Positions 3,524-58,905 of a stretch of DNA of 64,000 nt are shown here, in pieces. The number at the start of each line of letters is the position of its first letter. Positions within the stretch are counted from its first letter, which is position 1. The notes beneath the pieces are model-generated. The model was given only the letters and a program-made list of their open reading frames with translations, made no database searches and was not told the DNA's origin. The position numbers and the translations under genes were made by a program. This DNA comes from an uncultured Parabacteroides sp. (GTDB taxonomy: Bacteria > Bacteroidota > Bacteroidia > Bacteroidales > Tannerellaceae), in NCBI GenBank assembly GCA_934725305.1, contig CAKVBA010000001.1, forward strand, positions 62,001 to 126,000, given 5' to 3'.

Positions 3524-3863
3524 AAATACAATAACCAGGCAAGGATTCAAGAAGGTATTAATACGGTCAAAATCGACTAATCTATTTTCAGGAATTGGAT
3601 GCCTACTCCGTTTGAATTGGGTAGGCACCCAATCCGAACGGAGTGCCTACCCATTTTCAAAAAAGTCCCTACCCTTTTTTCAAAAAGTCTATACCCTTTT
3701 TCCAAAAACTCTATAGACCCTTGAAAAATAGCCAATAACCTCTTTTTAGATGGAGTTTAGACTGAAACAAACTTGCTCGCTAATCCCGACGAAATCACCA
3801 GTCGTTTCAAGCAAACTCAGCTACCCTTTTCACCAAATAATTACTCTGATAAATTACAATAAC
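3524..3863 (+). repeat. Dispersed intergenic element, copy 1 (340-bp core)
   Basis: The core begins with AAATACAATAAC (3524) and ends with AAATTACAATAAC (to 3863). Inside are about 22-bp degenerate units, including a near-perfect hairpin in which GGGTAGGCAC pairs with GTGCCTACCC, and the signature AGTCCCTACCC. Same orientation as copies 2 and 3. I see no terminal inverted repeats here, so this copy looks like a core without the outer arms. The rest of the 3498-4216 gap contains no recognisable gene; mraZ, usual in front of rsmH, is absent. Confidence 0.8.
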
Positions 3864-4098
3864 ACTATCGCTCCAAGGCGTTACCATTAGACTATGGAGC
3901 ACCGCCGTTACTCCGAACAAACATTTGACAAGCGTGATGTTTTCGTACCGAACAGCGGTATGTTTCACAAATCAGAAGAAAAGAGAAGAGCCACTCCTGC
4001 GACCTCCTTTCGCCAAGCCTTTAGCTAAAGAGCTGAAAATCCAAAAGTAATTAACCACCTGTTGAAAACTTTTCGTACTTTTATCTTACAAATATTAG

Positions 4099-4126
4099 TT
4101 GGTATTTTCGTAATTATGTACTTTTA
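4099..4126 (+). promoter_or_regulatory. Candidate promoter of the dcw cluster
   Basis: TTG at 4099-4101 and TACTTTTA at 4119-4126, with a 17-bp spacer, lie about 90 bp upstream of rsmH. The -7 box deviates from TAnnTTTG in its last base and the spacer is short, so this is only a candidate. No repeated TGGG-type MraZ boxes were seen. Confidence 0.3.
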
Positions 4127-4216
4127 CCCCGAAATAGGCTATAAGCCACTAACAAAGCGGTAAATCGCTTCATTGGGGAAAAGGAAGTTTAACAGAAATA
4201 GAGACAAAAAAGACGA

Positions 4217-5137
4217 ATGGAAGACAAAAGCGTTTGCTATCATGTACCGGTACTTCTTGAAGAAAGCCTAATGGGCTTGGACATACACCCATCAGGGACT
4301 TACGTAGATGTAACTTTTGGAGGAGGCGGACATTCCCGTGAAATCTTAAAGCAGCTGGGTGAAGAGGGCCATCTTTATGGCTTTGACCAAGACGCAGATG
4401 CCGAACAGAATGTGCCGGAAGACACTCGTTTTACCTTTGTCAGAAGCAATTTCCGCTATTTGTATAATTTCATGCGCTACCATGGCGAGCTGGAGCAGGT
4501 GGATGGACTTTTGGCCGACCTGGGTGTTTCTTCTCACCACTTCGATGACAAAGAGCGAGGTTTTTCATTCCGCTTCGAAGGTGCGCTGGACATGCGAATG
4601 AACACACGTGCCGGCCAAACTGCGGCGGATGTGCTGAACAACTATTCAGAAGAAAAATTGGCCAATGTGCTCTATCTATATGGCGAGCTGAAAGCGGCCC
4701 GCAAAATGGCAGCAGCCATTGTTCTCACTCGTGCGACCAAACCTTTTGAGACGATTGGAGACCTGCTGGACGCGATCAAGCCCTTTGTCGGCAAAGACAA
4801 GGAGAAGAAATTCCTGGCACAAGTGTTTCAGGCACTCCGCATCGAGGTGAACAACGAGATGCTGGCACTGAAAGAGATGTTGCGACAGACACGGCTTGTG
4901 CTGAAGCCGGGAGGACGACTGGTGGTCATCACCTATCACTCGCTGGAAGATCGCTTGGTAAAGAACTTCTTGAAGACAGGCAACTTTGAAGGAAAAGCCG
5001 AACAAGACTTTTTTGGCAACATAAAATCGCCCTTCAAGCTGATCAACAACAAAGTGATTGTTCCGTCGGACGAAGAGATTGAACGCAATCCACGCTCACG
5101 TAGCGCCAAACTGAGAATTGCTGAATTAGTAAAATAA
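4217..5137 (+). CDS. rsmH: 16S rRNA (cytosine(1402)-N4)-methyltransferase
   Basis: RsmH (MraW) methylates C1402 of 16S rRNA at N4 using S-adenosylmethionine. The 306-aa length is typical. The SAM-binding loop VTFGGGGHSREIL is near residues 31-43, LLADLGVSSHHFD near residue 100, and the C-terminal signature ITYHSLEDRLVKNF near 240. It is the first gene of the division/cell-wall cluster and is followed 8 bp later by the ftsL-like gene. In most Bacteroidetes mraZ precedes it; here it does not. A repeat-bearing intergenic region lies upstream instead. Confidence 0.97.
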   Translation: MEDKSVCYHVPVLLEESLMGLDIHPSGTYVDVTFGGGGHSREILKQLGEEGHLYGFDQDADAEQNVPEDTRFTFVRSNFRYLYNFMRYHGELEQVDGLLADLGVSSHHFDDKERGFSFRFEGALDMRMNTRAGQTAADVLNNYSEEKLANVLYLYGELKAARKMAAAIVLTRATKPFETIGDLLDAIKPFVGKDKEKKFLAQVFQALRIEVNNEMLALKEMLRQTRLVLKPGGRLVVITYHSLEDRLVKNFLKTGNFEGKAEQDFFGNIKSPFKLINNKVIVPSDEEIERNPRSRSAKLRIAELVK

Positions 5138-5145
5138 GTAGTTTC

Positions 5146-5496
5146 ATGGAAGAGGAGAAGCAACAGAAAAATACAAAGAAAGAAAAGCGACTTTCTTTGT
5201 TATACATATTGGGTGGCGGTATTCTAAAAGAGGACTACATCGTCAAGCATACTCGCATGATTGTGCTGGTAGTGATCTTGCTGTTCTTCTTTATCGGAAA
5301 CCGTTATACCTGTATGCAGAAACTGCGCGAGATAGACCGCTTGCAACAGAAATTACGGGATGTGCGCTTTGAAGCCCTGTCTATCTCCTCCGAACTGACC
5401 GGCCATAGCCGCCAGTCACAAATAGAATCGCTGATCGAAGAACAAGGTATTGATCTGGAGGCAGCAAAAACGCCCCCATACGAATTGTATAAATAG
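5146..5496 (+). CDS. ftsL: FtsL-like cell division protein
   Basis: Small bitopic membrane protein of 116 aa. It has a basic cytoplasmic N-terminus of about 35 residues, one transmembrane helix at about 38-53, then a short periplasmic coiled-coil (RLQQKLRDVRFEALS). This topology and its place between rsmH and ftsI are those of FtsL, which with FtsQ and FtsB forms the divisome complex that activates FtsW/FtsI. Sequence conservation in FtsL is low, so the assignment rests mainly on topology and synteny. It is separated from ftsI by 2 bp. Confidence 0.8.
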   Translation: MEEEKQQKNTKKEKRLSLLYILGGGILKEDYIVKHTRMIVLVVILLFFFIGNRYTCMQKLREIDRLQQKLRDVRFEALSISSELTGHSRQSQIESLIEEQGIDLEAAKTPPYELYK

Positions 5497-5498
5497 AT

Positions 5499-7667
5499 AT
5501 GTCAACTGAAAACGAGCCGAAAGATAACATGCCTAAAGGTGGCCGGATTCTGACCTGCTACTCTTTCGTTGTAGCCCTATTGGGATTAGTGGCTATAGGG
5601 ATTGTTGTATGCACACTCAACACGGCCTTCGTTGAAAAAGAGAAATGGCTCAAGGTTGATAAGGAACAGAAAAAGCCCAGCCGCCTGGTTTTGGCAGGCC
5701 GCGGCAACATCTATTCGTCGGACATGAGACTGATGGCGACCAGTGTGCCCCGCTATTATATGTATATCGACTTCCGGGCAAACGGTTTCAATGTGGATAC
5801 CTTTAAGCATTCCAAAAACAACGGCATCGATTCGCTCGCTTTCAAACTGTCTAAGAAGCTAAAGAATCGTACACCGGCCGGATACAAGGCATATCTGTTG
5901 AGCGGATTACGGAGCAAAAGTCGCCAATTCCCCATCTACGAGGGACGTGTTTCCTATTCCGACCTGAAAGAGATACGCAAATATCCCTTCCTTCGACTCA
6001 ACAGCAACAAGAGCGGATTCTACACCAAAGAGATGGTGCAGCGACAGAAGCCTTTCGGCTCGCTGGCATCGCGAACCATTGGTGACATCTATGGCGAAAT
6101 AGAGAAGGACGGATCGACGAAGGGTAAAAACGGTTTGGAGCTACAATACGACTCTCTGCTAAGAGGTCAAGCCGGACTGAGTGCCGTGCGCCGCGTGGCC
6201 GGAACCTGGACAAACATCATCGAAGTGGAACCGGTGGATGGCATGGATATACGCACCACTATTGACATCAACATACAGGATATCACCGAAAAATCGTTGG
6301 TGGATATGCTGAAATCGATTGACGCCGAATCGGGTACCGCAGTCGTTATGGAAACGGCAACCGGAGAAATCAAGGCCATCACCAACATGGGGCGTATCCG
6401 CGAGGGCGAATATGCCGAGACCAAAAACCATGCCGTGGCCGACGAAATTGAACCCGGCTCCACCTTTAAGGTGGCCTCAATCATGGTGGCACTGGAAGAC
6501 GGTGTCTGTCAACCGGGCGACACGGTTGATGTGGGTAACGGTATCTTCATGTATAAGGGAGCACGCATGACCGACCACAACAAACATCGTGGCGGTTACA
6601 AAAAGATTACCGTCGCTCAAGCCATCTGGTATTCATCCAATATTGGTGTGGCTAAGACTATCCTGAAGGGATATGCCAACAACCCCACCAAGTTTGTAGA
6701 AGGTCTGTATCGCATCGGCATGAATGCCGATCTGCACTTAGAGATTCCGGGTGCAGGTAAAGCCAAGATTCGCAGACCCGACGACACACTGCGCTACTGG
6801 TCAAAAACCACATTGCCCTGGATGTCGTTTGGCTATGAGACACAGATTCCGCCAATCAATACGCTGACCTTCTTCAACGCGATTGCCAATAACGGAAAGA
6901 TGGTGAGACCGATGTTTACCAAAGAGATCCTGCAGAATGGCAAGACCGTTGAACGGTTCTCGACCGAAGTGATCAAGTCGTCAATCTGTTCAGACCATAC
7001 GCTGGAGATTGTTAAAGAGATGCTGCTGGGCGTGGTAGAACAGGGAACCGGCAAGGCAGTACATTCTGACATTGTGAGAATTGCCGGAAAGACCGGTACG
7101 GCACAGATTGCCACCGGCGGTGTTTATCGCACCAGTGGCCATCAGGTTTCTTTCTGTGGATACTTCCCGGCCGAAGCGCCACGATATAGCTGTATTGTCG
7201 TGATCAGACGCCCACGTATCGGCTACCCTTCCGGTGGTAGCATGTCGGGCGGTGTGGTAAAGGCCATTGCCGAGAAGATCTATGCCAGCCATACCAGCCA
7301 CAAACTCGACGATATGGAGCGAGACTCCACGGCCGTGATGCTGCCGAGAACCAAGGGCGGAGACGCAGAGGCTCTGACGCACGTGCTGAAAGAGTTGAAC
7401 ATCAGAGCCAACACAGACAGCATAGAGACTCAATGGGTGAAATCATCCATTGACACCATATATAATGGATTACGTATCGAAGATGTGACTATCCGAGAGG
7501 GACTGGTTCCCAAAGTAATAGGTATGGGAGCAAAAGACGCCGTCTTCCTGCTGGAACAGGTCGGCCTCAGAGTCTCCTTGTCTGGCATGGGACGCGTAAC
7601 CAGCCAAAGTATTCCGCCTGGACACCGTGTATCCAGAGGACAAACTATTTTATTAACATTGAAGTGA
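5499..7667 (+). CDS. ftsI: Division-specific penicillin-binding protein (transpeptidase) with PASTA tail
   Basis: Class B PBP that cross-links septal peptidoglycan, 722 aa. A single N-terminal membrane anchor lies at about residues 22-43, followed by a dimerisation domain and the transpeptidase domain. The active-site motifs are S321-T-F-K324 (SxxK), SSN near 379 and K531-T-G533 (KTG). The last about 55 residues form a PASTA-like domain ([17 protein letters not shown]), as in many Bacteroidetes and Gram-positive division PBPs. The stop overlaps the murE start by one base (TGATG), which suggests translational coupling. Confidence 0.95.
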
Positions 7668-9127
7668 TGAAACTGAAAGATTTAATAGGAATTTTGGATG
7701 CCTCACCCGTGCAAGAGCCGGAGGTCGAGATTACAGGTATCCAGTCTGATTCTCGCAAAATAGAAAAAGGAAACCTGTTCGTGGCTGTCAGAGGTACCGC
7801 TGTGGACGGGCATGACTATATAGAGGGCGCCATCAAGAAAGGTGCTGCAGCCATTGTCTGCGAAGAGACGCCAACACTGCCTGAAGAGCTCTTGGCTGCT
7901 TGCCATCCGCTCTTTATCCGGGTAAAAGACTCGGCAGATGCCTTGGGAAAACTGATGTCGCAATGGTTTGGAAACCCTTCAGACCAACTGGTATTGGTGG
8001 GCGTAACCGGCACCAACGGCAAGACAACCATTGCCACCCTGCTGTATGAGATGTTTCGCAAGATGGGGCACAAAGTGGGACTGATCTCAACCGTATGCAA
8101 CTATATCGACGGTGAGGCTATCCCAACGGATCACACCACGCCCGACCCAATCACTCTGCATACTCTGATGAACCAGATGGTAGAAGCCGGCTGTGAATAT
8201 GCCTTCATGGAGGTCAGCTCGCATGCTGTGGATCAGAAACGTATCAGCGGCCTCTCGTTCAATGGTGGCATCTTCACCAATTTGACCCGCGATCACCTTG
8301 ATTATCACAAGACCGTAGAGAACTACCTAAAGGCCAAGAAAAGCTTCTTTGACCAGCTGCCCGCCCAGGCATTTGCCTTGACCAATGCCGATGACAAATC
8401 GGGCTTGGTGATGCTACAGAATACAAAGGCCAAAAAGCTGACCTATTCATTACGCTCACTGGCAGACTTCAAGGGAAAGATCTTGGAATCGCACTTTGAA
8501 GGCACAGAGCTGCTTATCAACAACCGGGAGTTGTTTGTCAACTTCGTCGGACGATTCAATGCCTATAACCTGCTGGCGGTGTATGGCGCTGCCGTCTCAT
8601 TGGGCAAAGACCCCGAAGAGGTGTTGGTGGTATTAAGCTCGCTCCATCCTGTATCGGGACGCTTCCAGACCCTTCAATCACCGAAAGGCTTCACTGCCAT
8701 TATTGATTATGCCCACACACCGGATGCGCTGGTGAATGTGCTCAATACCATCCAAGAGGTGCTGAATGGCAGAGGGCAGATAATCACGGTGGTAGGATGC
8801 GGCGGCAACCGAGACAAAGGGAAACGCCCCATCATGGCCAAAGAGGCAAGCCGCTTGAGCGACAAATTGATATTGACCTCGGACAATCCTCGCATGGAAG
8901 ATCCCGAGGCCATCATTCAAGATATGGTAGCCGGACTGACCCCAGCCGATAAAGAGCATACGCTGACGATTACCGACCGCAAGATGGCCATCAAAACGGC
9001 CGTGATGCTGGCGCAAAAGGGCGACATTATCTTAGTGGCAGGCAAGGGACACGAGAACTACCAGGATATACAAGGAGTGAAACATCATTTTGATGACCGC
9101 GAAATAGTATGGGAGCTTATTAAATAA
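7667..9127 (+). CDS. murE: UDP-MurNAc-L-Ala-D-Glu:meso-diaminopimelate ligase
   Basis: Mur ligase adding the third stem-peptide residue to the peptidoglycan precursor, 486 aa. The ATP-binding loop GTNGKTT is near residues 115-121. The amino-acid-recognition motif DNPR (406-409) is the form associated with meso-DAP rather than lysine, so DAP-type peptidoglycan is inferred. The ATG at 7667, overlapping the ftsI stop, is preferred to the GTG one codon upstream. It sits in the dcw operon between ftsI and mraY. Confidence 0.96.
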
Positions 9128-9155
9128 TTGTCAATTATAAAAACGGAGTTTTTTC

Positions 9156-10415
9156 ATGTTATATTATCTATTTAACTATTTGGATCAACTGGACTTTCCG
9201 GGAGCAGGCATGTTTAAGTATGTCTCTTTCAGATCGGGTCTGGCTCTGATCTTATCTTTATTTATCTCCACTGCCATCGGACGTCGCATCATCGACCGAC
9301 TTCAGATGCTGCAAATCGGTGAGGCCATACGAAACCTTGGATTAGAAGGACAGATGAGCAAAAAAGGTACACCCACCATGGGCGGTATCATCATCATCAT
9401 TGCCATACTGATTCCGACCTTGCTCTGTGCCAAATTGACAAATGTCTATTTGATATTAATGATCATCACTACATTATGGTTGGGCGCTTTGGGCTTTGCC
9501 GACGACTATATCAAGGTGTTCAAGAAGAACAAAGAGGGCATGCACGGACGGTTCAAGATTGTGGGTCAGCTGGGACTGGGCCTGATTGTGGGTCTGGTGC
9601 TCTTTCTCAGTCCGGATGTCGTGATCCAAGAGAATATGGAGGTACGCCACGACAACGTGATTGAAGAGGTGCGATTCCACACCGAAGAGACCAAATCGAC
9701 CAAGACAACCATTCCGTTTGTAAAGAACAACAACTTCGACTACGCCAATCTTGTCAGCTGGGCAGGCGACTACAAAGACGAGGCAGCCTGGCTACTGTTT
9801 GTGCTGATGGTGGTCTTCGTTGTAACAGCCGTTTCCAACGGAGCCAACATGACTGACGGACTGGATGGATTGGCAGCAGGAAGTTCGGCTATCATCGGAG
9901 TGGCCTTAGGCATATTGGCCTATATGTCGTCCCACTTCCAGTTTGCCTCGTTCCTGAACATCATGTTCATCCCGGGAGCCGAAGAGCTGGTGGTCTTTGC
10001 GGCAGCCTTTATCGGTGCAACGGTGGGCTTCCTGTGGTATAATGCCTATCCGGCTCAAGTGTTTATGGGCGATACCGGCAGCTTGACCCTGGGCGGTATC
10101 ATCGCAGTGTTTGCCATCATCATCCGCAAGGAGCTGTTGATTCCTATCCTGTGCGGAATCTTTTTAGTTGAGAATATCTCTGTCATGCTGCAAGTGGCCT
10201 ACTTTAAATATACCAAGAAGAAATATGGCGAGGGACGACGCATCTTCAAGATGGCTCCGCTGCACCACCATTTTCAGAAACCGGGCAATGCAGGTATTCA
10301 GGCATTGATACAGAAGCCATATAATGTGGTACCCGAATCCAAAATCGTAATCCGTTTTTGGCTGATTGGCATTATATTGGCTGTTATTACAATTGTTACG
10401 CTTAAAATGAGATAA
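9156..10415 (+). CDS. mraY: Phospho-MurNAc-pentapeptide transferase
   Basis: Integral membrane enzyme that makes lipid I from UDP-MurNAc-pentapeptide and undecaprenyl phosphate; 419 aa with about ten predicted membrane helices. Conserved motifs: GTPTMGG near 70, the catalytic Asp pair in FADDYIKV near 114, [12 protein letters not shown] near 231, and the C-terminal cytoplasmic APLHHHFQ. A hydrophilic insert at about residues 155-195 makes it longer than the roughly 360-aa E. coli protein; this is common in Bacteroidetes. It follows murE by 28 bp and precedes murD by 4 bp. Confidence 0.97.
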
Positions 10416-10419
10416 GAAG

Positions 10420-11757: not shown

Positions 11758-11813
11758 TCATCGCTACAACCCAACGGAATAGGGAGATAGTAAACAAGAA
11801 GAGTTGATACAAA

Positions 11814-14218: not shown

Positions 14219-14308
14219 TTCAACAGGTATCAGAGAGTTTCTTTTCCACAAAAGGCTCAACAAGCCCTATATGGAAGAAACGATGTGAAAAGAAGCAATA
14301 AAAAGGCG

Positions 14309-15688: not shown

Positions 15689-15700
15689 AAAGATAAAGAC

Positions 15701-16429: not shown

Positions 16430-16441
16430 AGAGATAGAATT

Positions 16442-17812: not shown

Positions 17813-17827
17813 TAAAACCGGAATACA

Positions 17828-26362: not shown

Positions 26363-26432
26363 CCCTTTTCCAAAAAGGTCGGCAGCTTTTTGGAAAAAGG
26401 GCGCACCCTTTTTAGAAAAAGGTCGGCAGCTG
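26363..26432. repeat. Short intergenic array of AAAAAGG units
   Basis: Units of about 20 bp of the type CCAAAAAGGTCGGCAGCTTTTTGG occur at 26363-26432, with AAAAAGGTCGGCAGCT present twice and an AAAAAGGGCGCACCCTTTTT palindrome between. The layout (A-tract, GC-rich core, T-tract) resembles the large element's units, but the core sequence differs. The gap 26272-26499 has no gene. Confidence 0.55.
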
Positions 26433-33440: not shown

Positions 33441-33982
33441 CATCAGCTCACGATATATTTATCCCAAATCCGTCATTAGATTACGATTCTTGTTAGTACT
33501 TGTTTGAAACTGATTGCAATGGCTGCGTTGAAGGCACATTCATCAACCATAAAAATACAATAAGCCAATGGGCGGGAAAGAGACTGCTAATCCGGTCAAA
33601 AAGGAGTAAGCTATTTCCGGAAATTGGGTGCCTACTCCTTTCCGACGGAGTAGTTATTCCGTCCCAACGGAGTGCCTACTCAATTTCAAAAAAGTCCCTA
33701 CCCTTTTTTCAAAAAGTCTATAGACTAATCCCGAAAAGTCTATAGACGCCTGAAATACAGTATATAACCTCCATCGAGAGGGTGTTTACACCGAGACCCA
33801 TTCTTTCGATAATTCCAGCAGAATCGCCCATCGTTTCAGACAAATTTGTCTCCTGTTTCCAGCGAACAACAACCCTAAAAAAATTACAATAACTACTCGT
33901 TATGGCCGCTGTTGGTGTACCAAAAAACGCACACAAGACTGCCTTTTTAACCCAATTTGGATTAAATGAATGAACTGTGATG
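33441..33982. mobile_element. Copy 2 of the dispersed element with outer arms (MITE-like)
   Basis: The region between pyrH and the transglutaminase gene is filled by a full-length copy. The left end reads ATTTATCCCAAATCCGTCATT (about 33457-33476) and the right end CCAATTTGGATTAAATGA (about 33952-33969), which are degenerate inverted versions of the arms of copy 4. The 60-110 bp inside the left arm aligns base by base with the corresponding part of copy 4. The core is listed separately. No transposase or long conserved frame is present, so mobilisation would need a factor in trans. Confidence 0.6.
33553..33893 (+). repeat. Dispersed intergenic element core, copy 2 (341 bp)
   Basis: Bounded by AAATACAATAAG (33553) and AAATTACAATAAC (to 33893). 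It contains GGAGTGCCTACTCAATTTC, AGTCCCTACCC and two AGTCTATAGAC palindromes, at 33715-33726 (perfect) and 33737-33748. Same orientation as copies 1 and 3. Confidence 0.85.
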
Positions 33983-38436: not shown

Positions 38437-39987
38437 ATGGCCATAAAAAAAGATAAAGTCCTTTGGGCAGACGATGAAATAGATCTGCTAAAACCTCACA
38501 TCTTTTTTCTCCAAGACAAAGGATACGAAGTGGTTCCTGTGATCAGCGGACAAGATGCCATTGATTGCTGTAAAGAACAGAACTTCGATATCATCTTCTT
38601 GGATGAAAATATGCCGGGGCTTACCGGACTGGAAACGCTCTCTCTCATTAAAGAGATTGATCCGAATGTGCCAATCGTGATGGTGACCAAGAGCGAAGAG
38701 GAAAGTATCATGAACCAGGCAATCGGAAACAAAATTGCCGATTATCTGATTAAACCGGTCAATCCCAATCAGCTGTTGCTATCGATCAAAAAGAATGTAC
38801 ACAAGAATGTGATCATCTCGGAAACGACAACGGTGGGCTATCAGCAGGAGTTCGGCCGTATCGGCATGCAGATCAACGACTCGCTCACGGCAGAAGACTG
38901 GATTGATGTCTATAAGAAACTGGTCTATTGGGAACTGGAGCTTGAAAACAGCCAGGTGCAAATGGCCGATATGTTACGGATGCAAAAAGAGGAGGCAAAC
39001 AATGCGTTTGGCAAGTTCGTAAAGAAGAACTATGCCGATTGGATTCAAAATCCTTCTGATCGCCCTTTGATGAGTCCCGATCTGTTCAAGAAAAAGCTCT
39101 TCCCTGCGCTCGACAATGGGGAGAAATTCTTCTTTATCCTGATAGATAACTTCCGGCTGGATCAGTGGCGTTCGGTCAAAGAGCTGTTGGCGGACCATTA
39201 CTCCATTGATGAGAATCTCTATTACAGCATCTTGCCTACGGCTACACAATATGCACGTAATGCCATCTTCTCGGGCTTGATGCCGCGACAGATCGAACAG
39301 ATGTTTCCCGAACTGTGGGTCGATGAAGACAGTGAAGAGGGGAAAAACCTCAACGAGGCGCCCTTTATCCAGACGCAGATCGATCGCTTCCGCAAGAAAT
39401 ATAGCTTCTCCTACAACAAGGTGCACGACTCTCAGTATGGCGAAAAGCTGCTGAACAATATCGATTCGTTGACACATAACCAGCTAAATGTAGTGGTACT
39501 GAACTTTGTGGACATGTTGTCGCATGCCCGCACCGAGAGCAAGATGATTCGCGAACTGGCCCAAAGCGAAGCGGCCTACCGCAGCTTGACCAAATCGTGG
39601 TTCCAGCATTCATCTACCTTGGAACTGTTCAAACGGATTGCCTCCAAAGGCTACAAGGTGATTATCACAACCGACCACGGAACCATCCGCGTAACCGATC
39701 CGGTGAAGGTGATTGGTGACAAAAACACCAATACCAACCTGCGCTACAAAGTAGGCAAAAACTTGAGCTATAATCCGAAAGAGGTATTTGAGATTCGTGA
39801 TCCGGAGAAAGTGGGATTGCCGTCGCCCAACTTGAGCAGTAAATATATCTTTGCCATGGGTAACGACTTCTTTGCCTATCCCAACAACTACAACTATTAT
39901 GTTTCTTATTATAAAAACACCTTCCAACATGGCGGTATCTCTATGGAGGAAATGCTGATTCCGTTTATCACGATGGAACCAAAATAA
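38437..39987 (+). CDS. porX: PorX: response regulator with PglZ (alkaline phosphatase-like) output domain
   Basis: 516 aa. The N-terminal receiver domain has acidic pocket D12/D13, phospho-acceptor D56 (FLDENMPG), T84 and K106. It is followed by a helical linker and a PglZ domain of the alkaline-phosphatase superfamily with ILIDNFRLDQW, LPTATQYARNAIFSGLMP, LNFVDMLSHAR and ITTDHG, which make up the metal site. PorX is the regulator of type IX secretion described in Porphyromonas gingivalis, paired with sensor PorY and an ECF sigma factor; neither is in this window. The porPKLMN operon lies about 10 kb away. It is followed by tsaE, a linkage common in Bacteroidetes. Confidence 0.93.
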   Translation: MAIKKDKVLWADDEIDLLKPHIFFLQDKGYEVVPVISGQDAIDCCKEQNFDIIFLDENMPGLTGLETLSLIKEIDPNVPIVMVTKSEEESIMNQAIGNKIADYLIKPVNPNQLLLSIKKNVHKNVIISETTTVGYQQEFGRIGMQINDSLTAEDWIDVYKKLVYWELELENSQVQMADMLRMQKEEANNAFGKFVKKNYADWIQNPSDRPLMSPDLFKKKLFPALDNGEKFFFILIDNFRLDQWRSVKELLADHYSIDENLYYSILPTATQYARNAIFSGLMPRQIEQMFPELWVDEDSEEGKNLNEAPFIQTQIDRFRKKYSFSYNKVHDSQYGEKLLNNIDSLTHNQLNVVVLNFVDMLSHARTESKMIRELAQSEAAYRSLTKSWFQHSSTLELFKRIASKGYKVIITTDHGTIRVTDPVKVIGDKNTNTNLRYKVGKNLSYNPKEVFEIRDPEKVGLPSPNLSSKYIFAMGNDFFAYPNNYNYYVSYYKNTFQHGGISMEEMLIPFITMEPK

Positions 39988-43182: not shown

Positions 43183-43262
43183 AGTATGCCCCAAATGGAT
43201 AACTAACCGTTTCAAACGAAGTAACTACCCTTTTTCAACGAAGAACCTATCCTTTTTTCCAA
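43183..43262. repeat. Degenerate array related to the dispersed element
   Basis: Three to four units resembling the element's units: CCAAATGGATAACTAACCG, CGAAGTAACTACCCTTTTTC and CGAAGAACCTATCCTTTTTT. They are more diverged than in copy 3, which begins 70 bp further on, and may be an older, decayed copy. Confidence 0.5.
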
Positions 43263-43330
43263 GTCGGTGTATCAAAAATAGGCTGAAAGCATAAAAGTAC
43301 TTGGTGGTTTATGTTTATTCTATCAAAAAA

Positions 43331-43669
43331 AAATACAATAAGCCAACAAGCAGGCAACAGATTGTTAATCCTATCAAAAAGGAGTAGGCTATTTCCAAAA
43401 AATGGGAGCCTACTCCTTTCCAACGGAGTGCCTACCTAATTCGAACGGAGTGCCTACCCAATTTCAAAAAAGTCCCTACCCTTTTTCCGAAAAGTCTATA
43501 GACTCTTTTCAAAAACTCTATAGACTATTGAAAAACAGCCCTTAACATCTTTTTCAAGGGCGCTTGATCCAAGGCAGGCTCATCTGTCAATGCCAACGAA
43601 GTTGTCCGTTGTTTCTAACATATTTGTTACTTTTTTTGACAAATAACAGACCTATAAAATTACAATAAC
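43331..43669 (+). repeat. Dispersed intergenic element core, copy 3 (339 bp)
   Basis: Bounded by AAATACAATAAG (43331) and AAATTACAATAAC (to 43669). It carries the best-paired hairpin of the family, GGAGTAGGCT with AGCCTACTCC (43381-43416), tandem CGGAGTGCCTACC units, AGTCCCTACCC, and a perfect AGTCTATAGACT at 43493-43504. The right flank resembles that of copy 2 up to about 43735; terminal inverted arms are not clear. The rest of the gap (43063-43815) holds the acetyltransferase-like gene's promoter and no other gene. Confidence 0.85.
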
Positions 43670-43759
43670 TGCTCCTTCCGGCCGTTATTGTCGGTATGTA
43701 TAAAAAAACAGGATGCATCCCAACAGCCGTTTTTGATACACCTTCTGCGCCCCTTATTA

Positions 43760-43791
43760 TTCGTTTATTCCAGAGATTTTCCGTAAATTTG
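43760..43791 (+). promoter_or_regulatory. Promoter of the acetyltransferase-like gene
   Basis: TTCG (43760-43763), 20-bp spacer, perfect TAAATTTG (43784-43791), 25 bp before the ATG at 43816. It sits inside the longer open frame and so argues for the downstream start. Confidence 0.65.
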
Positions 43792-43815
43792 CAATCTAAA
43801 TTAGCTATAAATCAG

Positions 43816-44943
43816 ATGAGCATAATTATAAAAGAAGTTTCCGGAAAGAAAGAACTCAAACAGTTTGTTAAGTTCAGTATTGATCTATATAAAAACAATC
43901 CCTACTATGTGCCTGGTCTGATTGACGAAGAGATGGTTACACTCGACAAGACGAAAAATCCCGCCTTCGAAGTGTGTGAAGCCGTCTATTTTCTGGCCTA
44001 TAAGGATGGAAAGATTGTCGGACGTATTGCCGGTATGATTAATCGCCCCAGCAACGAAGTGTGGAATCAGAAACGTGCCCGCTTCGGTTTCGTCGATTTT
44101 ATTGATGACAACGAAGTGGTAGATGCCCTGTTCAATGCGGTTGAAGATTGGGCCCGTAAAAAAGGCATGGAAGAGATTCATGGCCCGATGGGGTTCACCG
44201 ACATGGACCACGAAGGTATGCTGATCGAAGGCTTCGACCAGATTGGTACCATGGCAACCATCTATAACTATCCCTACTATCCGAAACAGGTTGAACGTCT
44301 CGGATATGGTAAAGATCAGGACTGGCATGAATTTAAGATCTATATTCCGGACGGTGTCCCCGAAAAACACCAGCGCATCGGCGAGATTGTCAAGAAGAAG
44401 TATGGCCTGAAGATTCGTAAGTTCAAATCGGCCAAAGAGATCATGCCCTATGCACGCCCGGTGTTCAAGACACTGAATGCAGCCTTTGCTCCGCTGTATG
44501 GCTTTGCTCCGCTGACCGACAAACAGATCGACTACTACATCAACATGTATATTCCCATGTTGCGCTACGACCTGGTGACACTGATTGTAAAGGAAGAGGA
44601 CGACTCTGTGGTAGGTTTCGGCATCTCTCTGCCCAACCTGTCAAAGGCATTGCAAAAAGCCCGTGGCCGTCTGCTGCCATTCGGATGGTTCCATCTGTTA
44701 AGAGCCTTAAAGAGTAAGCCCAAGGTGATCGACCTCTACCTGACAGGCGTATTGCCCGAGTATCAGAGCAAAGGCGTCAATGCGTTGCTATTTAACGACT
44801 TGATTCCGGTCTATAAGAGTATAGGCGCAGTCTATGCCGAGAGCAATCCGGAATTGGAGACCAACAGCGCCGTACAGGCACAGTGGGACTATTTTAAACG
44901 TGAACATCATAAATCAAGAAGAGCCTATATCAAAAAGTTATAA
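43816..44943 (+). CDS. GNAT-superfamily N-acetyltransferase-like protein
   Basis: 375-aa cytoplasmic protein conserved in Bacteroidetes and usually labelled N-acetyltransferase or hypothetical. The N-terminal half has a GNAT-like segment (FLAYKDGKIVGRIAGMINR near 62) and GPMGFTDMDHEGMLIEGF near 122. A second GNAT-like part near 305-345 contains LYLTGVLPEYQSKGVNALLFNDLI, whose QxxGxN pattern resembles the acetyl-CoA loop. The start at 43816 is set by the promoter. It is 3 bp before parE, so it probably leads the parE-coaD-ctp operon. Substrate unknown. Confidence 0.7.
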   Translation: MSIIIKEVSGKKELKQFVKFSIDLYKNNPYYVPGLIDEEMVTLDKTKNPAFEVCEAVYFLAYKDGKIVGRIAGMINRPSNEVWNQKRARFGFVDFIDDNEVVDALFNAVEDWARKKGMEEIHGPMGFTDMDHEGMLIEGFDQIGTMATIYNYPYYPKQVERLGYGKDQDWHEFKIYIPDGVPEKHQRIGEIVKKKYGLKIRKFKSAKEIMPYARPVFKTLNAAFAPLYGFAPLTDKQIDYYINMYIPMLRYDLVTLIVKEEDDSVVGFGISLPNLSKALQKARGRLLPFGWFHLLRALKSKPKVIDLYLTGVLPEYQSKGVNALLFNDLIPVYKSIGAVYAESNPELETNSAVQAQWDYFKREHHKSRRAYIKKL

Positions 44944-44946
44944 CAC

Positions 44947-46815: not shown

Positions 46816-46830
46816 TAGAACAAGAGAAAC

Positions 46831-47340: not shown

Positions 47341-47341
47341 T

Positions 47342-48955: not shown

Positions 48956-48981
48956 GAGGACTTAATGATTTTCTATAGGTT

Positions 48982-50066: not shown

Positions 50067-50144
50067 TAAAAGATGGTCTTTCGGATAGGAATCCAATTCT
50101 ACCATCAACAGCAATGAAGGAATAAGAAAAGGAATATTATAATT

Positions 50145-50184
50145 CTGGCGGTGCGTCAAAACAACCATTATGACACACCGCCAG
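50145..50184. terminator. GGCTGTGTCAAAA-family hairpin terminator (copy 5)
   Basis: CTGGCGGTGCGTCAAAA pairs with TATGACACACCGCCAG with CAACCAT in the loop and flanking T-rich sequence. It lies between convergent chromate-transporter and por transcripts and probably serves both. Confidence 0.8.
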
Positions 50185-50210
50185 TCTTTTGTATAGTATT
50201 ACCGAAGCTA

Positions 50211-51302: not shown

Positions 51303-51312
51303 ATTCTTTACG

Positions 51313-52881: not shown

Positions 52882-52911
52882 ATCGCTTTCTTCAATTAAT
52901 CTACATTAGTT

Positions 52912-53985
52912 TCATCGGCCTGGCTGACCCGGATTGTTTGAATAGGGCGCCTGATAATTATTACCCTGCATAGGCTGCTGAGGATAAGCCTGACTAAAAG
53001 GCTGAGAAGCATAAGCCTGATTAGAGGGTTGTGCCGGTGCCTGATAACCCATATTCACCGTCATCGCCTGCAACAGACGACTATATACCTGATTCAACTC
53101 TGACAGCTGACGAGTCATCTTTTCCGTCTCGTTACGGAACACGGAACTATCAATAACAGAACCGTCATACATCTCACGGATACGGCTCAAACCGCCATTG
53201 ATATGCTCTATCGATTCAATCTGAGAACTGATGCTCTTCAACTGTATCTCATAAATTGTATTCAATCCAGATACATTGCGATTCAACAGCTCCATCTGTT
53301 GTACATAACCACGGGAATTTTGGTTTATGCCATCCGAATTGTCTGTTATGCTCTTATAAGAATTCAACAACACATCCGATACATTTGTCAATGAATTGGT
53401 TACTTGGCTGAAGCGTTCCATCTGCTGAGACATTGTTGACAACTGCTCCAAATACTTCTGTGTAGCTTCTGTCAACTCGGCCATCTTTGAAATCTGTTCA
53501 GCTGCACCGCTCAACTTCTTGATGCTTTCAGACAGATTCTTAGTATCCTCTTCTGACACATTCAATGAACCGGCTAAATTCAATCGGCCATCACCAGAGA
53601 CATGGCCTGCTGCTCCAAAGCCAGCCATCTTTGCCGCTTCGGATACCTGACTGTTTACATCTTCTTGTGTTTCGGTATTTACCGATGTATTACCCGAAAA
53701 GTCCGGACGATCCATCGGATTACGAGATTTCAACACGGGGAACACATCTTCCCAATGATATTCATTAGATGGATGCTCAAAGGCTGAGATAAAGAATACG
53801 ATAGACTCTGTAATCATAGCCACAAACAAGATCTGATTGGCATACGGCAAATGAAGCAACTTAAACAAGGCTCCCAAAATAACGATAGATGCACCCCAGC
53901 TATACAAGAAGTTCAATACACGCTTACCCCTTTCACTGGAAAGGAACATCTCGACTCTGTTTTTATATCTTCTATACTTTCCCAT
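52912..53985 (-). CDS. porL: Type IX secretion motor subunit PorL/GldL
   Basis: 357-aa inner-membrane protein with two N-terminal helices (about 22-44 and 50-70); the second carries the conserved Glu-containing AMITESIVFFISAFEHP. The cytoplasmic part is coiled-coil-like (about 140-300). The final about 45 residues form a Gln/Pro/Tyr/Asn-rich tail (QAPAQPSNQAYASQPF...), not present in the shorter P. gingivalis PorL as I remember it. PorL and PorM form the energy-transducing motor. It lies 40 bp downstream of porK. Confidence 0.93.
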   Translation of the reverse strand: MGKYRRYKNRVEMFLSSERGKRVLNFLYSWGASIVILGALFKLLHLPYANQILFVAMITESIVFFISAFEHPSNEYHWEDVFPVLKSRNPMDRPDFSGNTSVNTETQEDVNSQVSEAAKMAGFGAAGHVSGDGRLNLAGSLNVSEEDTKNLSESIKKLSGAAEQISKMAELTEATQKYLEQLSTMSQQMERFSQVTNSLTNVSDVLLNSYKSITDNSDGINQNSRGYVQQMELLNRNVSGLNTIYEIQLKSISSQIESIEHINGGLSRIREMYDGSVIDSSVFRNETEKMTRQLSELNQVYSRLLQAMTVNMGYQAPAQPSNQAYASQPFSQAYPQQPMQGNNYQAPYSNNPGQPGR

Positions 53986-54025
53986 TGTATATTATATCAA
54001 TCAATTGTATTATTACACCTCTATT

Positions 54026-55453
54026 TTATTTCTTTCCCTTTGAACGAGAAAAGCCTATCTGCGTACGCACACAGCGGAATCCAATGTAAGAACGTGTCTC
54101 GTTCTGATACTCAAAAGTACGCATGTCTGAACGGATAAACTGTGCCACATCTTTCCACGAGCCACCGCGAACCACCTTCTTCTTCATCGCATAAGGATCG
54201 TTCTTTGCTGCATTATAACGCAATTCCGGATTCATGTCGCTTGTCTGACTTGGACCTGATTCTGAATAGGAATCCACTGTCCACTCTGCCACATTACCCG
54301 CCATGTCATACAAACCGAATTCATTGGGTGCAAAAGAGCCCACTCGGGAAGTTATCAGATGACCATCTTCTGTATAGTTTCCTTTACCCGGCTTAAAGTT
54401 ACCCAAGAAACAGCCTTTACCTGTCTGCATACCATCACCATCCCACGGGAACTTGCGTTCGTTCTTACCAACACGTGCGGCATATTCCCATTCTCCTTCT
54501 GTTGGCAGACGGAAAGATTCGATAGATTGTCCGTCCGGCAGACTTAATGATTCCTTATACATATTGGTACGCCATGCACAAAAAGCATTAGCCTGCTCCC
54601 AAGAAACACCCACTACAGGATAATCGTCATATCCCGGATGATTGAAATACATTCGCATATACGGCTCATTATAAGCATTGTTGAAATCATTCACCCAGCA
54701 ACTTTCATCCGGATAAATATTCACGATATATGTATTCAAGAAATCCCATTCACTGCTCAATGGGCGTGTGATTGTTTCATTAAAGATTCGTCCCTCTTCA
54801 TCCACATAGGCTGTATCCTTTGAAATCATAACCACCTCATTGGGATCGACCGTGATATCCGTATTACGCACACGGTCAGCCGGATTCAACTGATGTTTAC
54901 GCAACGCAGCTGAGGTGTAGTCATACCATTCATACTTATAGATCATTTGTTTGGCATCCAGCTTCTTCTCTCCTGTGATAGGATTGACATAATAGACACT
55001 TTCGATGGCACGTATCTCATCCTCATTCGCACGTTTCCATGGAATCGGTCTGTTCCAATCCAAATGCGGAGTTACCGGTTCGCCATATTTATCTTCCGTA
55101 ATCTTGAAGAGGTCGTTACCGCCATAGGCCGGATCGGCCAAACGCTCACGGATAATAGAGTCACGCACCCAATAGACAAACTGACGATACTTTGCATTCG
55201 TCACCTCTGTCTGATCCATCCAAAAAGCATCAAATGAAACACCTTTTGTCTCGGGAACAATGCCCCACAATGAATCCTTATCAGACGGGCCCATCTCAAA
55301 TGCCCCTCTCTTAATCAGAACCATTCCATAAGGAGCTGGCTCATTAAATGCCACTGTACGAACCCCCGTTACTTCTCCTCCTACATTGCGCAATGACTTG
55401 CCGCAAGATGAGAGTAAGGCCAATACCACAAGTGTTAATAATACTTTCTTCAT
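54026..55453 (-). CDS. porK: Type IX secretion lipoprotein PorK/GldK
   Basis: 475-aa outer-membrane lipoprotein; lipobox Cys at residue 17 (LLSSCGKS). It has the fold of formylglycine-generating/sulfatase-modifying enzymes, with family segments FEMGPSDKDS near 52, LPTEGEWEYAARVGKN near 316, FGLYDMAGNVAEWTVDSY near 380 and VVRGGSWKD near 431, but GldK proteins are structural, not catalytic. Forms the ring with PorN. It follows porP by 3 bp. Confidence 0.94.
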   Translation of the reverse strand: MKKVLLTLVVLALLSSCGKSLRNVGGEVTGVRTVAFNEPAPYGMVLIKRGAFEMGPSDKDSLWGIVPETKGVSFDAFWMDQTEVTNAKYRQFVYWVRDSIIRERLADPAYGGNDLFKITEDKYGEPVTPHLDWNRPIPWKRANEDEIRAIESVYYVNPITGEKKLDAKQMIYKYEWYDYTSAALRKHQLNPADRVRNTDITVDPNEVVMISKDTAYVDEEGRIFNETITRPLSSEWDFLNTYIVNIYPDESCWVNDFNNAYNEPYMRMYFNHPGYDDYPVVGVSWEQANAFCAWRTNMYKESLSLPDGQSIESFRLPTEGEWEYAARVGKNERKFPWDGDGMQTGKGCFLGNFKPGKGNYTEDGHLITSRVGSFAPNEFGLYDMAGNVAEWTVDSYSESGPSQTSDMNPELRYNAAKNDPYAMKKKVVRGGSWKDVAQFIRSDMRTFEYQNETRSYIGFRCVRTQIGFSRSKGKK

Positions 55454-55456
55454 ATA

Positions 55457-56425
55457 CTATAATATACGTACACTTTTATGTCTATTACTTCCTGTTTTAG
55501 TCTTGTGCAGTTTCAAGTTATAAGACACCATCAGTTCATGACTTCCTGCACCAAACTTTCCTAACTGAGTGGTGGCAAAATCAAAGGCATATCCCAACTG
55601 AAAACGCCCTATCTTTGCTCCAAACAATAATGCGACAGATTCGCCCACACGCCAAGCCAGACCTCCATTGAACATCTTGTTATATTCCAAACGCGCTGTA
55701 ACATCGGCATGTACACCTGTTTTCATATCTGTCATAAGAAACGCAGAAGGCTGTAACTCAAATAACGGATTATTTAATTGAATATTGTATCCACCCATTA
55801 AATTATACATTCTTCCGATGTAAAAATAAGCATTTTCCTGCAAATGCATCTCCGGTTCGGTCAAATGTGTCGCTGCTATTCCCACGAAAAAGCGCTTATG
55901 AGTATAAAAAAGCCCGAAATTCATATCCAAAGCCATGCCGCTAACCTGTGTTGTTGGAATGGCTGTGTCTTCTCCCGGTTGTACGAAGTACTCCGCATTA
56001 TCCGGAATATAAGCCTTCGTTCCGTCAAACGCCTCATTGACCAGCCCCAACTGAAGACCTCCGCTCAATATGCCTCCCAGAAACTTATGCTTATAGGCAT
56101 ACTGCAAGGCCACATGAGTATTCGTAAACAATCCGGCTGCATCAACAAACAAAACGGCTCCCACACCATGCTGTGTCTTTCCAAATGTCAAAGGCATCTC
56201 GCCCGTCACGAAGAACGACATCGGTGCGCCTTTCACGCCCACCCATTCCAGGCGAGAAGAGGCAACAAGGTTTAAATTTTCGGTCGATCCGGCGTAAGCG
56301 GGGTTATAGTAGTTTCGAGCCATGTAATACTGGGCAAAGCGTGTATCATACTGGGCATGCACCTTTTGCATGCATGTCAATAACATCCCTATCGAGATTA
56401 GAATATATGTAACCAGCTTACCCAT
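55457..56425 (-). CDS. porP: Type IX secretion outer-membrane protein PorP/SprF family
   Basis: 322-aa outer-membrane beta-barrel protein with signal peptide (about 1-24, ending VHAQ). The PorP/SprF start YDTRFAQYYMARNYYNPAYAGS is characteristic, and the strands end in aromatic residues as in a barrel. First gene of the porPKLMN operon, same order as in P. gingivalis. Upstream TACATTCG at about 56439-56446 could be a weak -7 element. Confidence 0.92.
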   Translation of the reverse strand: MGKLVTYILISIGMLLTCMQKVHAQYDTRFAQYYMARNYYNPAYAGSTENLNLVASSRLEWVGVKGAPMSFFVTGEMPLTFGKTQHGVGAVLFVDAAGLFTNTHVALQYAYKHKFLGGILSGGLQLGLVNEAFDGTKAYIPDNAEYFVQPGEDTAIPTTQVSGMALDMNFGLFYTHKRFFVGIAATHLTEPEMHLQENAYFYIGRMYNLMGGYNIQLNNPLFELQPSAFLMTDMKTGVHADVTARLEYNKMFNGGLAWRVGESVALLFGAKIGRFQLGYAFDFATTQLGKFGAGSHELMVSYNLKLHKTKTGSNRHKSVRIL

Positions 56426-56570
56426 CTTATCTATAACGAATGTATCTTCAATTTATTATCGTTCTTCACACAACTATTACACGGTGAATCACATTATATT
56501 ATTAAGACAAGGTATATGTCATAATTGCAAACGGCTGCGTTGCTTTCACTAATTCTGACAAATACCTTAA

Positions 56571-56607
56571 GAGGCTGTATCAAAATAGTCATTTTGACAC
56601 AGCCTCC
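56571..56607. terminator. GGCTGTGTCAAAA-family hairpin terminator (copy 6)
   Basis: GAGGCTGTATCAAAAT pairs with ATTTTGACACAGCCTC, with a CCTCTATTTT tail on the + strand. It is downstream of the DUF2795 gene stop on the minus strand. The rest of 56426-56570 holds no gene; a block at 56520-56559 resembles one near copy 4. Confidence 0.8.
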
Positions 56608-56654
56608 TCTATTTTACATGAATGTCAACTGATAAAGTCAACTATTATGCTGTA

Positions 56655-56876
56655 TTAATATTCTTCTTCGTTGAAGAAAAAGTCCTCTTTACTTGGATAA
56701 TCAGGCCAAATATCTTCCATACATTCATATATTTCGCCTTCATCTTCCATCTCTTGCAAATTCTCAATCACCTCTAATGGCGCACCAGAACGCTGTGCAT
56801 AATCAATCAGCTCATCTTTCGTTGCTGGCCAAGGTGCGTCTTCCAATTTTGAAGCTAACTCTAATGTCCAATACAT
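56655..56876 (-). CDS. DUF2795 family small protein
   Basis: 73-aa acidic protein. WPATKDELIDYAQRSGAPLEVIENLQ is the DUF2795 core, and the tail (IWPDYPSKEDFFFNEEEY) is conserved in Bacteroidetes homologues. Function unknown. The Met three residues into the open frame (56876) is taken as start because homologues begin MYWTLELAS; the ATG at 56885 would add three residues. A strong promoter lies 50 bp upstream. Confidence 0.85.
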   Translation of the reverse strand: MYWTLELASKLEDAPWPATKDELIDYAQRSGAPLEVIENLQEMEDEGEIYECMEDIWPDYPSKEDFFFNEEEY

Positions 56877-56927
56877 AGCTGTCAAGTATTAATAACCGCC
56901 CAAGCAGTCAAGTTCTCAATTTTTGCG

Positions 56928-56958
56928 CAAAAATATAACTTTATTTTTTACACGCAAG
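56928..56958 (-). promoter_or_regulatory. Promoter of the DUF2795 gene
   Basis: On the minus strand CTTG (56955-56958), 19-bp spacer, perfect TATTTTTG (56928-56935). The -33 element lies inside the last codons of the upstream cobalamin adenosyltransferase gene. Leader about 45 nt. Confidence 0.7.
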
Positions 56959-57511
56959 TATAATCCCAGAATATTTCTTTCCCATTGTTCTGAATACACT
57001 CTTTTCGTGCCAAGACGAAGAAATAGTCAGACAATCGGTTCATAAACACCAGAACAGGTTCTTCTACCGGATAATTTTCACACAGACGATAGATCTCGCG
57101 CTCTGCTCTGCGGCACACAGTACGGCAAACATGGGCCAATGAGGCAGAACGGCAACCGCCCGGCAAGACAAAGGCTTTCAATTTGGGCAGAGCACCATCA
57201 ATCTTATCAATCTCCGTTTCTATACGGCTGATGCTCTCTGGCGTCACTTTACTTTCAATCTTCAACTCGGTTGTTTCCTGATCGGTTGCCAGATAAGAAC
57301 CGATTGTAAACAATTTATGCTGAATGAATGACAAGAACTCTTTGTCTTCTTCTCCCTCAATAGCCGAGATTAACAATCCAATAAATGAATTCAGCTCATC
57401 AATAGTGCCATAGCTTTCGATACGCTGATGGGCTTTGGAAACTCGTTGACCTCCTACTAAAGAGGTGGTTCCCTTATCTCCAGTTCCTGTATAAATGATA
57501 CTCTTCTTCAT
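56948..57511 (-). CDS. ATP:cob(I)alamin adenosyltransferase (PduO type)
   Basis: 187-aa trimeric enzyme that makes adenosylcobalamin. The N-terminal ATP-binding motif [29 protein letters not shown] near 33, [11 protein letters not shown] near 133 and [14 protein letters not shown] near 158 are all PduO-family hallmarks. The ATG at 57511 is preferred to the TTG two codons upstream. It starts 2 bp after the methyltransferase-like gene's stop and is probably co-transcribed with it. No other cobalamin gene is in the window. Confidence 0.94.
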
Positions 57512-57513
57512 AC

Positions 57514-58305
57514 TCAAAAATAAACTATATAATCTCTTTTATGCAATTTCTTATGAAATACGATAATTCCCAATGAATAGAGATCCAATGTCACAGTCAC
57601 ATCGGGATGCAGACAGACGTCGTGCCAAAACTGACGCATCGTGCGATTCTCCTTGATTCCTTCAAAGACAAACAGTGTGCCGTCGTGCACATGCTTGATA
57701 CATTCATTGAACAGCCACAAATTGTCTTCCGACTCATACAATGTGTTGAAAAAGACGAAGTCGAGCTCCTTCAAGTTGTCCAGCGCATCAGGAAGCAACT
57801 TGCGATAACTGCCCACACGCAAGTCTATTGAAGCACGGGAAGCCTTCTTATAAACCTGTTCAGCAATAGAGGCAAACTCCGGCACTGTCTCTAATGCGAT
57901 GCAATGCACATCCGGTGCATACGAAGTCAGGTATAAAGTAGATAGCCCCATGGCAGGACCTAACTGCAAGATATTCCTCGACTTGAAATAATTGGCCAGA
58001 CGAAACAACAGTGCTCCATGCTTGGGTTTGATTGCTTCGCGCTTGACTATCGATCCCACGGTGCGACGGCGCATCTTGCCCTTGTTTCGCCGATCTGGAT
58101 ATGTTATATATTCATCCCGTAAAAGCAACTGCTTACGCAACAACTCTATATCGTTAAAGCTATAATAACAACAGCGCTCTTCTATCACCTTTGTAATCAG
58201 ATTAAAGACGAAGGGTGAATGAACGCCAAAGCCTTTCCGATATCGGATGCTCCGATAAAGAAGCACACTTTTCCTTAACGTATTAGCTCTCGGTATTATA
58301 TGCAT
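57514..58305 (-). CDS. Putative class I SAM-dependent methyltransferase
   Basis: 263-aa protein. The first about 85 residues are basic and include [18 protein letters not shown], a segment often seen at the start of such Bacteroidetes proteins. The Rossmann-like part has [19 protein letters not shown] near 114 (motif I) and [17 protein letters not shown] near 135 (motif II), as in O-methyltransferases. Substrate unknown. It begins 18 bp after a good promoter and leads the cobalamin adenosyltransferase gene. Confidence 0.7.
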
Positions 58306-58322
58306 TTTATATATATTTTAGG

Positions 58323-58354
58323 CAAATATAAAATAATTACTTTGCTTTTACAAT
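58323..58354 (-). promoter_or_regulatory. Promoter of the methyltransferase-like gene
   Basis: On the minus strand ATTG (-33, at about 58351-58354), 20-bp spacer, perfect TATATTTG (58323-58330). Predicted leader only about 10 nt. Confidence 0.65.
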
Positions 58355-58447
58355 AAAGAGACTCGCTATTTATACAAGAAAGACACGGCTCTTTCATTTA
58401 ACCCAAATCGGTCATTCGGACGAAAAAAGTAAAACAGCCGAATATTT

Positions 58448-58576
58448 CTATTCCATCCAATTCTTGTCAGCACTTCTTTTGGCATCTTGCTTCCGCCAGC
58501 GGGTGATAAACAGGATGTTTTCATCGGTTATCTCAACATATTGCCTATAGCCATCGGAGAGATAGTTATTGTATTT
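58448..58576 (-). other. Possible coding remnant inside element copy 4
   Basis: A 42-codon frame with no ATG start follows a stop at 58577-58579 and reads with a protein-like mix of residues (SDGYRQYVEITDENILFITR, then WRKQDAKR and KNWME, stop). No equivalent is kept in copies 1-3. It may be the tail of a captured or decayed gene. I do not recognise the family. Confidence 0.3.
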
Positions 58577-58905
58577 TTATCCGGATTATTAGTTACTAAA
58601 AGCGGTAACGGATCCGGCAGAAACGACGGGCGACTTCGCCGGACTTGACAGACGAATCCACCTCAGCCCAAACACCCTGAAAAAAGGGGTTATGGGCTGT
58701 TTTTCAATAGTCTATAGAGTCTTTAGGAAAAGGGTATAGACTTTTTCCAAAAAGGGTAGGGACTTTTTTGAAATTGGGTAGGCACTCCGTTGAGACGGAA
58801 TAACTACTCCGTCGGAAAGGAGTAGTTACCCAATTTCCGGAAATAGCTAACTCCTTTTTGATAGGATTAGTAGTCTCTTGTCTGCCTGTTAGCTTATTGT
58901 ATTTT
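58565..58905 (-). repeat. Dispersed intergenic element core, copy 4 (341 bp, inverted)
   Basis: Read on the minus strand, it begins AAATACAATAAG (58905) and ends AAAAATACAATAAC (58565). Units include CGGAGTGCCTACCCAATTTC, AGTCCCTACCC and CTCTATAGACTATTG, in the same order as copies 1-3. Confidence 0.85.

Follow-up and report, generated by a model that had tools for sequence, protein, structure and literature searches.

BrickBuilt elements of Porphyromonas gingivalis lie between genes and consist of a leader, tandem bricks of 23 nt and a tail, with terminal inverted repeats (TIRs) of the IS5 type. Both TIRs are present in only 4 of the 19 copies, and the host range described for the elements is restricted to P. 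gingivalis and P. gulae (PMC4596501). According to the same source, MITE464/PgRS of P. gingivalis is likewise a miniature inverted-repeat transposable element (MITE) that contains tandem repeats and has TIRs of the IS5 type (PMC4596501). We analysed 64 kb of DNA from an uncultured Parabacteroides sp. (contig CAKVBA010000001.1, positions 62,001 to 126,000; this whole stretch is called the window) that carries a dispersed intergenic element with a core of about 340 nt in four copies. The element is built like BrickBuilt but, judged by sequence, is not a member of that family. The BrickBuilt unit AGAYCATARTATCCTCTCRTRTG had no match in the window at up to 3 mismatches and the IS5-type TIR GAGACCTTTGCA none at up to 1 mismatch, and therefore the window element was not regarded as a BrickBuilt copy. 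The open-licence literature held no title on the element or on 22-bp intergenic repeats of Tannerellaceae among the matches listed, an unnamed element being hard to search for. A sequence-only reading of the window had not recognised a known family; the sequence is new as far as tested, while the kind of element is a known one, the minisatellite-bearing MITE (PMC4596501). We consider it probable that the window element is a non-autonomous mobile element of the MITE type.

The four homologous cores were 340-342 nt long, showed pairwise identities of 71-77% and occupied four different gaps between genes. Copies 1 (3523..3863), 2 (33552..33893) and 3 (43330..43669) lie on the plus strand and copy 4 (58565..58906) on the minus strand. 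The sequence-only reading had reported such non-coding cores of near-constant length, dispersed over these gaps, and this was confirmed, except that the left 12-mer starts one base earlier in the three plus-strand copies. As it had also stated, AAAWTACAATAA was found at both ends of every core and in the same orientation relative to the core (8 of 8 ends). All eight occurrences in the window were at core ends, at a chance expectation of 0.01. In the four-copy alignment, columns 2-13 were invariant, and so were 12 of the final 13 columns. Any two cores differed by 78-100 substitutions and only 1-3 gap events (all six pairs; 11 gap events to 544 substitutions in total), and in every copy the span from TACAATAA, the left one, to AAAGTCCCTACCC measured exactly 127 nt.

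About half of the core (positions ~46-225) consists of a 22-bp tandem array, a feature absent from the earlier description. Self-match at a lag of 22 was 0.54-0.61 over core positions 46-225, compared to a mean of 0.26, and Tandem Repeats Finder reported period 22 in 9 of its 32 rows for the window, all nine intergenic and among them three arrays that lack leader and tail (reported at 63020-63102, 43200-43257 and 26372-26431). The brick is an imperfect palindrome carrying A and T tracts. As in BrickBuilt, the array runs free of spacers between leader and tail; leader and tail were homologous in all four copies and the register of the array was fixed. Conservation was strongly uneven. In columns 113-175, the brick block, 53 of 63 columns were invariant, versus 109 of 254 in the remaining interior with the ends excluded (Fisher p 2.5e-9), and the best-conserved 63-column block was matched in none of 5000 column shuffles. 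This suggests constraint. The central bricks probably bind a protein, or else conversion keeps them alike, and the better-kept block could mark a candidate binding site.

Evidence for mobility came from the flanks. The left arms of copies 2 and 4 were homologous for ~95 bp past the left 12-mer, and therefore the core is the conserved interior and not the full element. Copy 4 is flanked by two 33-nt arms of an inverted repeat, TIR A, one past the right end of the core (58384..58416, plus strand) and one past its left end (58980..59012, minus strand). The arms were 94% complementary, a score reached by none of 300 randomised flank pairs. Each arm is abutted by TCTTTCTTGT (58374..58383 and 59013..59022, both on the minus strand), a perfect 10-bp target-site duplication (TSD) that occurs exactly twice in the window, each time adjoining a TIR of copy 4. 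From TIR to TIR copy 4 measures 629 bp, and CACGGCTCTTTCATTTAACCC is the TIR sequence expected of a parent insertion sequence (IS). Copy 2 aligned to TIR A on both sides. Its left arm (33449..33551, plus strand) holds a decayed TIR A and over 33457-33551 shares 80% identity with its counterpart in copy 4; the right TIR A (33952..33979, minus strand) is kept at 23 of 28 positions. In each case one of 300 random stretches of the window reached the alignment score, and the element itself may be among those stretches. Owing to this decay, a direct comparison of the two arms of copy 2 did not rise above background (score reached by 257 of 300 randomised pairs), and no TSD was visible by eye. Copy 3 is flanked by a different pair, TIR B, with a left arm at 43266..43285 (plus strand) and a right arm at 43724..43742 (minus strand), upstream of a GNAT gene; the score of this 19-20-nt pair was reached by 3 of 300 randomised flank pairs. 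No TIR shell was recognised around copy 1. The core, as a module, sits in at least two kinds of flank.

The GNAT reading frame as listed is overlong at its start (43696-43816), and comparison with the relatives' loci L001 and L011 placed the true start at 43817. To the right of copy 1, the minus strand of 3864-3900 resembles, by eye, what we take to be a piece of the 5' half of a tRNA; ARAGORN predicted no tRNA at 3864-3900.

We also tested whether the cores encode protein. Short frames exist in them. In the tail, one plus-strand frame is uninterrupted in copies 2-4, whereas in copy 1 it is open only past an early stop. Substitutions in the tail were spread evenly over the codon positions (66-72 each) in all six frames, and therefore the core was read as non-coding. 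Two peptides translated from the flanks of copy 1 and copy 4 gave no Pfam match. A coding element was rejected because the frames are short and show no codon-position bias. The element is short, within the 50-1000 bp typical of MITEs, lacks coding capacity and is present as multiple dispersed intergenic copies (four copies in four gaps).

A second family of similar build was found in a relative from the Tannerellaceae, genome G040, where a separate dispersed element is centred on the brick TTTTTGGAAAAAGACTCTATTC. We collected nine copies, each from a different contig (L174, L181-L183, L185, L186, L213-L215), all with a core of 441-442 nt. Ten loci were inspected; contig C44 (L081 and L184) carries a brick array without the core and was excluded from the nine-copy counts. 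Over 36 pairs we counted 28 gap events and 1362 substitutions, and L174 differed from the other copies by 77-89 substitutions and only 1-2 gap events. The best-kept block of 63 columns again includes the brick (58 of 63 invariant) and was reached in 24 of 5000 shuffles, so that the excess of conservation is strong in the window family and weaker in G040. With nhmmer, G040 aligned to positions ~159-207 of the window profile (the best E, 6.9e-6, applies to a very small search space), and outside the brick its core showed no convincing homology to the window core in the same profile search. A TIR (GGATCAG...CCGGTTGTTAT) was present on the left of 7 of the 9 copies and on both sides of 4; at L185 just 24 nt are available to the right of the core and the right TIR is beyond reach. 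Duplications of 8 bp were exact at L181 and L215 and matched at 7 of 8 positions at L186 and 5 of 8 at L213. L182 sits inside an additional inverted pair (0 of 300 randomised). Thus the G040 element resembles the window element in its fixed-length core, central brick and variable flanks, the brick part matching the window profile, and differs from it in core length, TIR and the 8-bp duplications.

The G040 family also bears on the meaning of the fixed length. From diverged copies of constant length, the sequence-only reading had taken a suggestion of selection for a folded or bound structure. Since a family with TIRs keeps its length at the same ratio of indels to substitutions, fixed length alone is no sign of a folded RNA: in a diverged repeat it needs no selection on RNA and is weak evidence for one. 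The argument from length is therefore not needed, and constraint is suggested by the uneven conservation instead, so that the sequence-only reading is supported in part.

We favour the MITE reading because copy 4 has TIRs and a TSD, because decayed TIR A is found on both sides of copy 2, because the G040 family shares the build and shows recurring TIRs and duplications, because BrickBuilt as described provides a precedent (PMC4596501), and because the gap between the RNase R and GNAT genes at L001 and L011 lacks a core. A transposase supplied in trans would have recognised the TIRs, and whole copies would have inserted long ago into intergenic gaps. Later decay may have occurred mainly by substitution, with copies 1 and 3 losing their TIRs and duplications, while the interior would have held its length, indels being rare.

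Several observations weigh against a MITE. Only one of the four window copies, copy 4, has a TSD. The TIRs of copy 3 are weaker and of another sequence, with no TSD seen by eye, and the flanks of copy 1 showed no inverted pair above background. Although their TIRs match, copies 2 and 4 have right arms of unequal length (58 nt vs 148 nt) and of different sequence. Direct 12-mers at core ends have, to our knowledge, no role in MITE transposition. Both exact duplications in G040 (L181 and L215) are rich in A. Considered one by one, the inverted pairs at L181, L215 and L213 surpass random pairs only modestly (24, 11 and 9 of 300); their weight rests on recurrence across several copies. Around transposase hits in relatives, to PF01610 (20 loci in 10 genomes) and to PF01609 (21 loci in 5 genomes), we found no TIR A pair at the ends, and no parent IS of which the copies could be fragments, as the sequence-only reading had considered, was identified near these loci.

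One match to TIR A lies ~1 kb from a transposase in L229, at the same site as the hairpin L141. At E 0.01, the inner part of TIR A was detected in five of the 123 family genomes, with 7 occurrences in G052. Among 13 loci of this inner part inspected by eye, short hairpins were seen at five (L140, L141, L146, L148 and L151), and the outer part of TIR A continues at L139 only. These hairpins, scattered in relatives, resemble an additional unit like the repetitive extragenic palindromic (REP) sequences.

The proteins of the window are nearest to Tannerellaceae and Parabacteroides. Of 123 family genomes, 117 contained a match to its transglutaminase-domain protein, the highest identities being 81% over the full length and 83% over one piece of 259 residues; for RNase R the best segment, in L011, reached 86%. 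With all candidates scored, 11 relatives yielded no full core. Nor was the full core found in the 123 family genomes (best five candidates per genome), where only a 78-bp brick match in G040 appeared, or in 393 genomes of the order (best two candidates per genome), which gave only two matches of 33-34 bp. With so few candidates scored per genome in the two larger searches, absence of the core from relatives is unproven. Copy 3 as query against 10 genomes with all candidates scored gave no G040 match at E 0.1, although the copy 4 query gave one. The brick pattern had 7 matches in G040 and one in each of 8 other family genomes, compared to 8 matches in 7 genomes for the reversed pattern, and therefore only G040 stands out. 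The sequence-only reading would have been refuted by copies that occur only here with no conserved length elsewhere; the exact element was seen only here, but a similar family elsewhere has a conserved length.

The pair of RNase R and GNAT genes was shown by 2 of 111 loci examined, L001 and L011. The gap between the two genes held no core in either, and in L011 it is filled by another gene. Absence of the core from these gaps is consistent with a lineage-specific insertion. In L001 (3731-3819) the gap carries four palindromic 22-bp units, TTTGTTGATAATTGTCAACAAA, that differ from the window bricks; the counterpart gap of the window holds copy 3.

A pattern of both ends plus brick gave no match in GTDB contigs, and plasmid and phage records gave none to the core of copy 4, alone or with its flanks. 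When copy 3 was searched together with its flanks, two Phocaeicola plasmids gave matches of only 47 and 41 bp, both beyond the core. In viral contigs the end-to-end pattern returned 21 stretches, none of which matched the cores (BLAST, E 0.05), and AAAAAGTCCCTACCCTTTTT and GGAGTGCCTACYCAATTTC gave no match. Pairs of GTCTATAGAC 22 bp apart occurred in three viral contigs, as repeats that we read as iteron-like and that have no further similarity. This decamer is common to the window bricks and these IMG/VR repeats (L187:8362-8438, L188:1294-1325 and L189:2099-2130), where several copies, some 22 bp apart, lie inside apparent genes. Elsewhere, in genome G042 (L208-L212), we observed dispersed arrays of ~21-bp units of the AAAAATAAAGGTTATATTTTT type, with leader and tail not recognised.

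Could the core itself be the mobile unit? As an independent cassette bounded by direct AAAWTACAATAA, it would insert into that 12-bp sequence site-specifically or in a recombination-like manner and move between MITE shells, the TIR elements being secondary carriers. In copies 1 and 3 homology breaks off abruptly at the 12-mers, although the match between copies 2 and 3 extends ~20 bp past the right end and 15 bp past the left. The near-invariant 12-mers, the two distinct TIR settings and the differing right arms of copies 2 and 4 would also fit. However, no solo 12-mer, i.e., no empty site, was present in the 64 kb. End pairs like the 12-mer, 300-330 nt apart, gave only two matches in the 123 family genomes (L113 and L114), neither similar to the cores by BLAST, and the G040 cores are sharply bounded too, yet inspection by eye revealed no direct repeats at the ends. 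We consider a cassette unlikely. An extension of the idea is held with equal doubt: the 22-bp array would be a conserved platform binding a host protein, of the nucleoid type or a regulator, and the core a discrete cassette bounded by 12-bp direct repeats and taken to promoter gaps by unrelated MITE shells, with Tannerellaceae families exchanging shells and outer sequence while retaining the central brick.

A functional RNA or cis-regulatory element, selected for fold and length and spread by duplication, would explain fold z-scores of -3.9 to -6.4, the far better conservation of the brick block and the position of the copies upstream of a gene or between divergent genes. The copy 4 gap also contains 5 promoter-like sites versus 1.6 (sd 1.4) in shuffled sequences, counted with a sigma-70 consensus whose fit to Bacteroidales is uncertain. 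But both strands fold alike (plus -3.6 to -6.7, minus -4.1 to -6.0; 40 shuffles each) and the window gave no Rfam match above the gathering threshold, lenient searches yielding one sub-threshold match each in the copy 3 and copy 4 gaps; on these grounds a structured RNA was rejected. Folding was strongest in the palindromic bricks, and on its plus strand the tail gave -3.4 in copy 4 but only -0.2 to -1.7 in the other three copies (40 shuffles each). As to covariation, proposed earlier as a check, 7 of 64 consensus pairs had both partners changed in one or more of the sequences, a count from four sequences only. The copy 4 gap has no terminator-like site, and the G040 family is fixed in length as well. 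Together this makes such an element quite improbable.

It is very improbable that the bricks are simply intrinsic minisatellites of Bacteroidales gaps, each unit spanning two helical turns and the leader and tail being incidental neighbours that were co-copied: arrays lacking leader and tail do occur at three other places in the window (63012-63104, minus strand, ~4 units of 22 bp; 43193-43263, plus strand, in the copy 3 gap outside TIR B; and 26363-26431, plus strand, a diverged 22-bp array of the AAAAAGGTCGGCAGC type with a weak profile match, E 0.009), and arrays of 21-22 bp with a different sequence are found in G042 and at 7 of the 80 RNase R loci from relatives, but leader and tail are homologous around an array of fixed register in all four copies, and periods of 20-23 are as common in coding DNA (6 of 20 arrays) as between genes (15 of 51) at the same loci. 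The idea of a helical period was found weak, as 7 of the 15 intergenic arrays came from the window itself.

Apart from the element, Pfam showed a response-regulator receiver domain fused to a PglZ domain at 38437-39987, beside a Na/H exchanger gene.

With the MITE reading, the window and G040 add two further brick-centred families, with other TIRs and sequences, in the Tannerellaceae, and MITEs with a minisatellite core may be a recurring design in Bacteroidales. That the brick block is better kept in two otherwise dissimilar families hints that the bricks, and not the whole element, have a function. Among the known systems, MITE464/PgRS differs by its description in having repeats of 41 nt, unlike the 22 nt of the window (PMC4596501). 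BrickBuilt and the window element are alike in being intergenic, non-coding and multi-copy and in consisting of a leader, tandem bricks of about two helical turns and a tail; in both, TIR shells are often incomplete, strong stem-loops are predicted for the bricks and the host range is limited (PMC4596501). They differ in the brick, which is 22 nt and of the TTTTTNCAAAAAGTCTATAGAC type in the window and AGAYCATARTATCCTCTCRTRTG in BrickBuilt, and in the array, equal in length in the four window copies and variable in BrickBuilt (PMC4596501). Unlike BrickBuilt, the window cores carry 12-nt direct repeats at their ends, and they are present at a density of four full copies in 64 kb, compared to 19 copies in 2.3 Mb for BrickBuilt (PMC4596501).

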